Origin: Ignavibacteria bacterium
Lineage (GTDB): Bacteria; Bacteroidota; Ignavibacteria; Kapaibacteriales; UBA961
Assembly (NCBI GenBank): GCA_016873735.1
Contig: VGWD01000017.1
Span: forward strand, 1-49,140
Reading direction: 5' to 3'
DNA: 49,140 bases
In this document: positions 26,263 to 28,487 of the stretch, in pieces
How positions within the stretch are numbered: the stretch's first letter is position 1
Layout: the number at the start of each line of letters is the position of its first letter
Translations under genes and position numbers: made by a program
The notes under the pieces: model-generated
The model's input: only the letters and a program-made list of their open reading frames with translations
Databases searched by the model: none
What the model was told of the DNA's origin: nothing

Positions 26263-26440
26263 ACCCTTATATCATTACAATCAACATTTGGTCAATCTTG
26301 CACATAGCAGAATGATCGGAACTTTCTATTTTCAATAAAGGCGTATAATTCAATTTATCGCCATGATTCTTTTTATTTGGGAAAATTGGTTGACATAATA
26401 TCTTTATCGTTGCACATTCCGTAAAACTTTTGTTTTTTTG

Positions 26441-26450: not shown

Positions 26451-26465
26451 GTGGGAGAAAGTGGG
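26451..26465 (+). promoter_or_regulatory. Distal MraZ-type operator
   Basis: GTGGG at 26451 and 26461, exactly 10 bp apart. MraZ is known to bind direct TGGGN repeats separated by 5 bp in front of its own gene, and these repeats match that pattern. It lies 609 bp from the mraZ start. Confidence 0.6.
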
Positions 26466-26883
26466 GGATGTTTGAAATGTTCAGTACAATCGCATGATCA
26501 TGGAGGGAAGCCATGTTCTTGCGTATAGCCGGAATTCCTTGATTTAAGGCATGCAGCAGCCATGAGGAAGTTCCTTGGGATTACATTCTGGTCAACTGGA
26601 AGTCGATATACACTGAACAAAAAGCATCCCCTTTCCCATGTTCATGCCCAATACCCCTCCTTTGCAATTCTTTCTAAACGCATCTAAGTATCAACAACGC
26701 ATAGACTTAAGTGTATGTATTGCTTTTGAATTCCTTCGCGCATTTCACTAAAAAATAACGGCATCAAAATTCAAGGATAATTCATCACTGATTGATGAAG
26801 TGTAAGAAAAACAGAAAAACATGGCATTTCAGCAAAAAACTATTGGTGATGTCCTATTGATTCGTGAGTTTTGTGTGAAAATT

Positions 26884-26898
26884 GTGGGTGAAAGTGGG
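26884..26898 (+). promoter_or_regulatory. Proximal MraZ-type operator 1
   Basis: GTGGG at 26884 and 26894, 10 bp apart, inside a segment almost the same as the distal block. The AAAGTGGGG part also resembles the AAAGTG[T/G] repeats described for MraZ of Mollicutes. Confidence 0.65.
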
Positions 26899-26923
26899 GA
26901 ATGTTTTTCAGTAAGAGCTATTT

Positions 26924-26938
26924 GTGGGAGAATGTGTG
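26924..26938 (+). promoter_or_regulatory. Proximal MraZ-type operator 2
   Basis: GTGGG at 26924 and GTGTG at 26934, 10 bp apart. The first repeat is 30 bp (three helical turns) from the last repeat of operator 1, so all four repeats face the same side of the helix. Confidence 0.55.
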
Positions 26939-27073
26939 GAGAAGACATATTCTCTTTGCATTACAGACACTTGCAGGCATGCAGCGATTGAGAGAGCCGA
27001 TAAAAGTGTGTAGTGTTCAGCTCCTGTTTACATTCAACTCGGATCACCGCTATTCACAAACTTGAATGGTGAC

Positions 27074-27529
27074 ATGGCTTTTTACAAAGGACAAGAAACA
27101 TATTCAGTCGATTCAAAAGGTCGAGTGAATATACCCGCAAAGATGCGCAGGGCTTTGTCTCCGGAGGCACTCAATACTTTTGTGCTGACCAGGGGCTCTG
27201 ATCGTTGCGTTGCGGCTTATCCTTTGGATGAATGGCGCAGATATGAACTTGAATATGCTAAGCTCAATCAATATGATGAACAAAGCAGATTTTTCCTGCG
27301 CACAGTGTTAGCATGGAGTGAAGAAGTGGAGCTTGATGCTCAGCAGCGCATCATTGTTCCGAGGAAATATTTGGACTTTGCCGGGATAGACGGAAAAGTT
27401 GTCATTGTGGGAATGATAGATCATATCGAATTGTGGCAACCGGAAGAATTTGATGTATACCTTGGTAAGTTTGAATCAAGTTATGAGCAAGTTGCTTCGC
27501 AGGTGATGCAGCGTCCGAATGGGCAATAA
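27074..27529 (+). CDS. mraZ: Transcriptional regulator MraZ
   Basis: MraZ is the autoregulatory repressor of the division and cell-wall cluster. The 151-aa protein has the two SpoVT/AbrB-type halves: YSVDSKGRVNIPAKMRRAL near the N-terminus and VELDAQQRIIVPRKYLDFAG near residue 85. A TTG at 27062 would add four residues; ATG 27074 gives the usual start MAFYKGQETYSVD. rsmH overlaps its end by 11 nt. Three pairs of MraZ-type operators precede the gene. Confidence 0.95.
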   Translation: MAFYKGQETYSVDSKGRVNIPAKMRRALSPEALNTFVLTRGSDRCVAAYPLDEWRRYELEYAKLNQYDEQSRFFLRTVLAWSEEVELDAQQRIIVPRKYLDFAGIDGKVVIVGMIDHIELWQPEEFDVYLGKFESSYEQVASQVMQRPNGQ

Positions 27530-28487
27530 GAAGCAATACTCAGCAAAACGGAGACCTCGCGTATCCGATAATCCCGAGATTCAGGATTATGATTATCATT
27601 TGCCGGTGATGCTTCATGAATGTGTGGATGCATTGATGTCATTCGGTCCTACAGGCACATATATTGACGGTACGCTTGGTGGTGGAGGTCATACGGCTGA
27701 GATTCTTTCTCGATTGACCGAAAAGGGAAGAATGATTTCATATGATGCAGATCCGGATGCAATCTTGCATTGCAAAGAACGATTTGCAAGCATCATGGAG
27801 GAAAATCCAGAGCGATTGACATTGCGGGAAGCGAATTTCGTATTCATGACGCAAGATGAAATTCCTGATGGAAGTATATCCGGAGTCTTATTGGATCTTG
27901 GAGTATCATCAAGACAATTGGATAAAGGGCAGCGCGGAATAAGCTATCGATTCAATACAAAATTGGATATGCGATTTGGTCCGAATGGACAAACAGCAGA
28001 AGAATTGCTTAACAGCATTGAGGAGGGTAAACTCCACCATATTCTGCGAGGTTTCGGGGAAGAACCTTTTGCAAGAATAATCGCACGGCGGGTCGTTGAG
28101 CGCCGCCGTGCGGCTCCTCTGCAATCAACATATGATTTGCGTCACCTAATCGAAGAATGCGTTCCACCGCATATTGTATCCAAATCGCTTGCCAGAGTGT
28201 TTCAAGCAATTCGCATAGCCGTGAATGGAGAATTGGACATACTTGAAAAAACCATCAGAGGAATCATGCCGAAACTCATATCAGGTGGACGAATCGTGAT
28301 TTTGTCCTATCATTCATTGGAAGATCGGATTGTAAAACATGTCTTCAAGGAATTGGCATCAAACCATGATGACAAAGCCCCTTCACTTCGTATACTAACA
28401 CCCAAACCCATAGAAGCCGATCAAGGAGAAATTTCACGGAATCCGCGGGCTAGAACCGCAAAACTCAGGATAGCCGAAAAGTGCTGA
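27519..28487 (+). CDS. rsmH: 16S rRNA (cytosine1402-N4)-methyltransferase RsmH
   Basis: RsmH (MraW) methylates N4 of C1402 in the ribosomal P site, using SAM. The 322-aa protein begins with a 25-residue basic tail, then HLPVMLHECVDAL in part, the SAM motif YIDGTLGGGGHTAEIL, YDADPDAI, and GVLLDLGVSSRQLD. The family segment RGISYRFNTKLDMRFGP has Phe where many members have Met. Near the end lie ARVFQAIRIAVNGEL and ILSYHSLEDRIVKHVF. It overlaps mraZ by 11 nt, so translation is coupled. The genes that normally follow (ftsL, ftsI, murE) are absent. Confidence 0.97.
   Translation: MGNKKQYSAKRRPRVSDNPEIQDYDYHLPVMLHECVDALMSFGPTGTYIDGTLGGGGHTAEILSRLTEKGRMISYDADPDAILHCKERFASIMEENPERLTLREANFVFMTQDEIPDGSISGVLLDLGVSSRQLDKGQRGISYRFNTKLDMRFGPNGQTAEELLNSIEEGKLHHILRGFGEEPFARIIARRVVERRRAAPLQSTYDLRHLIEECVPPHIVSKSLARVFQAIRIAVNGELDILEKTIRGIMPKLISGGRIVILSYHSLEDRIVKHVFKELASNHDDKAPSLRILTPKPIEADQGEISRNPRARTAKLRIAEKC

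Follow-up and report, generated by a model that had tools for sequence, protein, structure and literature searches.

Repeats that resemble binding sites of the MraZ repressor lie at two places upstream of mraZ in a contig of an Ignavibacteria bacterium (VGWD01000017.1), and this arrangement raises the question of what the second, distant block contributes to the control of the genes that follow. The analysed window was the whole stretch of 49,140 nucleotides, and all window coordinates refer to its plus strand. The mraZ gene (27074..27529, ATG start, Pfam PF02381) encodes 151 amino acids and is followed by rsmH/mraW (27519..28487, PF01795) as the next gene of the dcw cluster. The genome contains one MraZ gene, which has two PF02381 repeats above the cut-off.

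The original prediction had listed three pairs of GTGGG-type repeats, at 26451/26461, 26884/26894, and 26924/26934, and all of these coordinates were correct. The distal pair (GTGGGAGAAAGTGGGG, 26451-26466) and the first proximal pair (GTGGGTGAAAGTGGGG, 26884-26899) both read GTGGGNGAAAGTGGGG, whereas the third pair (GTGGGAGAATGTGTGG, 26924-26939) is weaker and degenerate: its second half reads GTGTGG and not GTGGG. The corresponding predicted MraZ operators are located at 26451..26465 (distal, GTGGGAGAAAGTGGG), at 26884..26898 (proximal, first pair), and at 26924..26938 (proximal, second pair). Within the window, four matches with at most three mismatches to the operator were found vs 0.71 expected, and at least four occurred in none of 100 shuffles. 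The exact 15-bp sequence GTGGGNNAAAGTGGG is present just twice in the whole 2.26-Mb genome, at 26451 and 26884. Directly upstream of mraZ, the operator GTGGG(A/T)GAAAGTGGG is nearly invariant throughout the order. Among 27 order-wide leaders, 10 contain a second pair 40 bp 3' of the first and one contains it at 41 bp, and none has it at any other offset from 14 to 89. The repeats are TGGGN-type direct repeats with the 10-bp period of MraZ operators, and the arrangement TTTTG-N10-GTGGG puts them within the mraZ promoter region, where they overlap or closely follow the predicted transcription start. Since the motif is conserved throughout the order in front of mraZ, does not recur elsewhere in the genome, has the 10-bp period, and overlaps the promoter, the GTGGG repeats are, as judged from sequence, two probable MraZ repressor sites, and the original assignment is supported in this respect. 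The G-runs lie downstream of a promoter and could instead form a G-quadruplex, as in the mraZ promoters of other bacteria; such a structure has been reported in the mraZ promoter region of S. aureus (PMC11796246). However, the conserved entity is GTGGG(A/T)GAAAGTGGG at exact 10-bp and 40-bp spacing, which is the MraZ pattern, and a single operator pair provides just two GGG runs, and we regard a G-quadruplex as extremely improbable.

Both blocks share a promoter signature that consists, relative to GTGGG, of TTG at -41 and TTTTG at -15. The predicted distal promoter (26410..26440; TTG 26410-26412, TTTTG 26436-26440) matches the order-wide mraZ promoters in its positions and was found in five congeners, and the predicted proximal promoter (26843..26873; TTG 26843-26845, TTTTG 26869-26873) was identified in the order-wide promoter alignment. 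The TTTTG element ends 10 nt before GTGGG both order-wide and in the distal block. In 33 leaders, TTT at -15 to -13 is strongly and TTG at -41 moderately conserved, and a G occurs at -11 in 64%. Because the tRNA-Gly genes of the order carry TTG...TAnnTTTG at a similar spacing, this signature was taken as the house promoter of the order; it resembles the Bacteroidota -33/-7 consensus. The presence of both elements in both blocks supports the earlier suggestion of two promoters by sequence, but the TATAAT beside the distal block, which had been proposed as a promoter, is not conserved and is replaced by TAGCAT or TAATAT in relatives.

The conservation of the distal block was assessed in a sample of 35 relatives, from which mraZ and its upstream DNA were extracted. 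The distal operator was found in every congener with enough sequence (G005, whose contig ends too early, was left out of this count). It is identical in G000, G002, G003, G004, and G006, at -622 to -645 from mraZ, and the more distant G001 has the exact operator at -633. In G001 (L011) it adjoins the upstream open reading frame (ORF), without a TTTTG element or a leader RNA, which suggests that the operator can be retained for its own sake. The spacing between the distal and the proximal block is 433, 434, 454 (in three genomes), or 423 bp, and the remainders of these values modulo 10.5 bp are 2.5-3.5, i.e., the helical phase is equal within 1 bp. This kept phase is suggestive of DNA looping. 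Control could be exerted purely at the DNA level by two MraZ-bound operators that cooperate, possibly through a loop of ~430 bp, to repress mraZ, with all RNA features being incidental. The common phase and the operator of G001, where the RNA element and the promoter were lost or never present, are in line with this possibility, which nevertheless appears improbable: it leaves unexplained ~190 bp of conserved sequence, the compensatory changes, and the small RNA (sRNA) complementarity described below, and with about three independent spacings only, the phase could be due to chance.

In the alignment of five congeners, strong conservation extends from the distal operator to about 26640, and the ~200 bp after it are largely unconserved except for a short ATAACGGC box. 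A small conserved ORF was rejected as an explanation for the distal block, since stop codons break the frames in the aligned genomes, and a dispersed repeat was rejected because no further strong copy of the element was found. Several other conserved sequences were observed in this region. An inverted repeat, GGCGTATAA...TTATCGCC (26340-26362), lies upstream of the distal promoter in the five congeners with matching changes in both arms, and may represent either a palindromic repressor site or an RNA hairpin that follows the upstream ATPase gene. The sequence TTGACATAAT (26390-26399), also upstream of the distal promoter and conserved in five congeners, is another candidate promoter or regulator box. 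Upstream of the proximal operator, a box AAAAATAACGGCAATA (26750-26766; variants ATAATTACAATA and ATAACTACAATA) is found in about two thirds of the leaders of the order at about -128, -138, or -150, positions that differ by roughly one helix turn, and may be an upstream activator site.

The copied unit is larger than originally described. The distance of 433 bp was confirmed, but the similar block comprises 38 nt at 79% identity instead of "about 30 bp", and the unit includes, in addition to the recognised operator, a promoter and a structured leader RNA that had been missed, both leaders being complementary to a conserved small RNA. The distal leader element (26451..26639, about 190 nt), delineated by conservation, fold, and a covariance model match in the window (E 3e-11), contains a helix P1 between the operator and CATCCCCTTTCCCAT (26625-26639), P2 (TGTTCAG/CTGAACA, 26478-26484/26613-26619), and P3 (26491-26503/26511-26523) with the loop AGGGAAG (26504..26510). 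The proximal element (26884..27038, about 155 nt), recognised by covariation and a covariance model match, forms P1 by pairing of 26897-26904 with about 27029-27036, P2 by pairing of 26909-26915 with about 27020-27026, and P3 from 26926-26937/26945-26956. Both copies thus contain the same three helices in different letters, with compensatory changes, which for P3 were likewise seen across the two copies. In the proximal alignment 93.4% of the pair cells are standard and 12 are double-sided vs 3.9 in shuffles (12 reached in 0/500); the structure was chosen on these same sequences, which favours it over slid controls, and the covariance model serves as the independent test. This model, built from proximal leaders alone, recovered the distal element in all five of the congeners in which it is retained (E about 1e-9), and its search of 14 genomes gave no further strong match. 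We therefore describe the two blocks as paralogous promoter-operator-leader modules, i.e., diverged copies, and mraZ is preceded by a predicted structured leader. Searches of the leaders against Rfam at gathering and relaxed thresholds yielded no family and chance-level eukaryotic matches only.

The partner of these leaders is a predicted RNA encoded elsewhere in the genome, in the 3' trailer of tRNA-Gly(GCC). It comprises an open stretch (ACUUCCUCUUUAUGCUGC) and two hairpins, one of them small and the other a terminator with ACUUCCCCCC in its loop and a U run behind it, and it contains the order-wide core UCCUCUUUAUGCUGCAUGCC. In a scan of 84,980 species genomes the exact 20-mer core was found in 87 stretches, nearly all of them in records named Kapaibacterium, Ignavibacteria, Chlorobiota OPB56, or Bacteroidota, and 62 of the 80 stretches read follow a detected tRNA-Gly(GCC). 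A model of the sRNA matched 32/33 genomes of the order and, weakly, 3/362 others of the phylum. Its terminator stem covaries (27 double-sided cells vs 5.6 in shuffles), and in genus g8 (G017, G026, and G033) the sRNA stands apart from the tRNA. By sequence, the conserved core, the covarying stem, and the standalone copy in one genus are the marks of an mRNA-targeting sRNA. At the sRNA locus Rfam matched only the tRNA; the small RNA from the tRNA-Gly(GCC) tail is previously undescribed.

Some occurrences of the core differ from this general picture. Family f2 (L163, L166, L170, L178, L190, L194, and L197) has a second, shorter copy of the core, which in most of these loci adjoins a peroxiredoxin (AhpC/TSA-like) gene; no MraZ match was obtained in the four f2 genomes of the first relatives sample. 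Far outside the order, a contig labelled candidate division SR1 (L159:6701-6747, minus strand) carries the same 20-nt core and a terminator with a C-rich loop (52 bits), reflecting either transfer or mislabelling. Typical copies of the sRNA locus were also detected in L158, L178, and L199, which are labelled Melioribacter roseus and Bradyrhizobiaceae, and the labels of these metagenome-assembled genomes, or the contigs, are thus probably wrong.

Each leader contains a stretch complementary to this sRNA, GGCATGCAGC(N6)GAGGAAGTT in the distal (26548..26572) and GGCATGCAGC(N4)GAGAGAGCC in the proximal copy (26976..26998); in both, GAGGRA or a sequence close to it comes 4 to 7 nt after GGCATGCAGC. 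Among seven congeners, this pattern is confined to the mraZ leaders and to one tRNA-Gly(GCC) trailer per genome, where it appears as reverse complement (in G002 the tRNA side of the sRNA contig looks misassembled). When the 49-kb contig was ranked by predicted pairing with the sRNA, the distal leader came first of 2452 windows and the proximal leader about tenth. Pairing of the open stretch with the leaders of g1 and g2 had z values of -3.6 to -7.2 in 15/15 cases, with 0/300 shuffles as good (for G012, whose own sRNA was not found, that of a congener was used), and the distal region of G001, which is devoid of the element, gave z +0.3. The P3 loop, in the distal copy at 26504..26510, is in addition complementary to the loop of the sRNA terminator over 6 bp, GGGAAG/CUUCCC in most g1 elements and GGGGGA/UCCCCC in g2; in G000 and G004 the proximal copies match over 4 bp only.

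The compact conserved fold upstream of an operon and the lack of an Rfam family would also suit a riboswitch-like metabolite sensor, the match to the tRNA trailer then being secondary or coincidental. We consider this very improbable, as the strongest conservation in the leaders falls on precisely the letters that can pair with the sRNA, colinear with it, and these genomes lack the pattern elsewhere except for rsmH in genus g2. There, in L047, L048, and L049, the sRNA-complementary sequence GGCATGCAGCATAGAGGAA lies inside the rsmH coding sequence (near position 1501); the synonymous codons around it are identical (42/42) in three species, and one further stretch of rsmH is equally conserved.

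Outside g1 and g2, where the leaders are mostly shorter, no clear complementarity was detected in the 14 leaders tested, with one borderline case (z -2.6); five further leaders were left unscored as their sRNA was not picked up. It follows that the sRNA must have other, older targets, and its use at mraZ leaders looks young compared with the sRNA itself. A search of the own genome with GCATGCAGC returned, besides the two leaders and the sRNA locus, only sites within ORFs. All of them pair worse than the distal leader, and a few reach energies like that of the proximal one (-43 to -45); further targets in this genome are possible.

The explanation that we consider likely is a duplicated mraZ promoter-operator-leader module under the control of both MraZ and the trailer sRNA, so that the operon would be set at the DNA and the RNA level. 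The Bacteroidota-like promoter of each copy would start an RNA just before the MraZ operator, and bound MraZ would block transcription, an autorepression postulated from known MraZ systems. Once transcribed, the operator would supply the 5' side of the helix that closes the leader, whose fold was derived by genome comparison. The leader would then offer a hairpin loop and a stretch that could pair, in the same order, with the sRNA. Such pairing would refold the leader and affect how stable it is or how it is processed, destabilisation being our guess; since the distance from the sRNA-complementary sites to the start codon of mraZ is about 75 and 500 nt, a block of translation is unlikely.

Transcription from the second promoter would most likely give a long mraZ leader with the distal copy at its extreme 5' end, and this copy may in addition titrate the sRNA. 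Alternatively, it could be a separate small RNA, a sponge outside the mraZ mRNA that is controlled by MraZ and titrates the trailer sRNA. Its closed fold with paired ends, its rank as the best-paired and most conserved copy, and the largely unconserved sequence behind it would agree with such an RNA. However, no intrinsic terminator was found directly after the distal element in four congeners, apart from one weak match well downstream in G002, which tips the balance slightly towards the long leader and away from a free RNA. The two could coexist, but an exclusive sponge seems unlikely. Returning to the module under dual control, its furthest extension is tentative and to our minds rather doubtful: an order-wide, tRNA-linked RNA would tie tRNA production to cell division by loop-loop and open-stretch pairing with both MraZ-operated leaders, with titration by the distal copy and feedback by MraZ. 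In the simpler form of this explanation, a repressor and an RNA probably act at the same two sites to control the cell-division operon of this bacterial group.

The MraZ sites can be compared with those of other bacteria. In Burkholderia cenocepacia they lie downstream of the -10 box and overlap the transcription start (PMC7761207), and MraZ repeats and autorepression are described for Mollicutes and E. coli (PMC8475190). Like these boxes, the operators described here include direct repeats of 10-bp period directly upstream of mraZ and downstream of its promoter, over the expected transcription start and at a site unique in the genome. In contrast to them, the promoter-operator block is present in full twice, ~430 bp apart, an additional pair lies at +40 bp, and the operator would double as the closing helix of a leader RNA.

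The closest working parallel, by analogy, is StsR-UpsM of Rhodobacter sphaeroides, in which the long leader UpsM of the dcw cluster is paired by the sRNA StsR (PMC5089854, PMC8307010). Both cases involve a long dcw leader upstream of mraZ that is complementary to a trans-encoded small RNA. UpsM ends at a Rho-independent terminator, which was not found in the leaders analysed here. The present leader furthermore is duplicated and MraZ-operated, its sRNA derives from a tRNA-Gly transcript, and the phylum is a different one. Because of the missing leader terminator, the missing Rfam match, and the origin of the sRNA from a tRNA transcript, the case was not filed as UpsM. If true, it would be the second, apparently independent case after StsR-UpsM of an sRNA acting on the leader of a cell-division operon. 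The order concerned has hardly been studied, and the same nucleotides would encode both a repressor site and an RNA helix. A further gain would be an RNA gene that is conserved through the order and linked to a tRNA gene; its wider targets have become testable.

A precedent for the sRNA itself is found in the 3' external transcribed spacer RNAs (3'ETS) of E. coli tRNAs, which act as sponges. Like 3'ETS, the RNA described here lies within the trailer of a tRNA precursor and is predicted to base-pair with other RNAs. Unlike 3'ETS, it is conserved through a whole order, has its own terminator with a C-rich loop, is separate from the tRNA in one genus, and has an mRNA leader as its apparent target.
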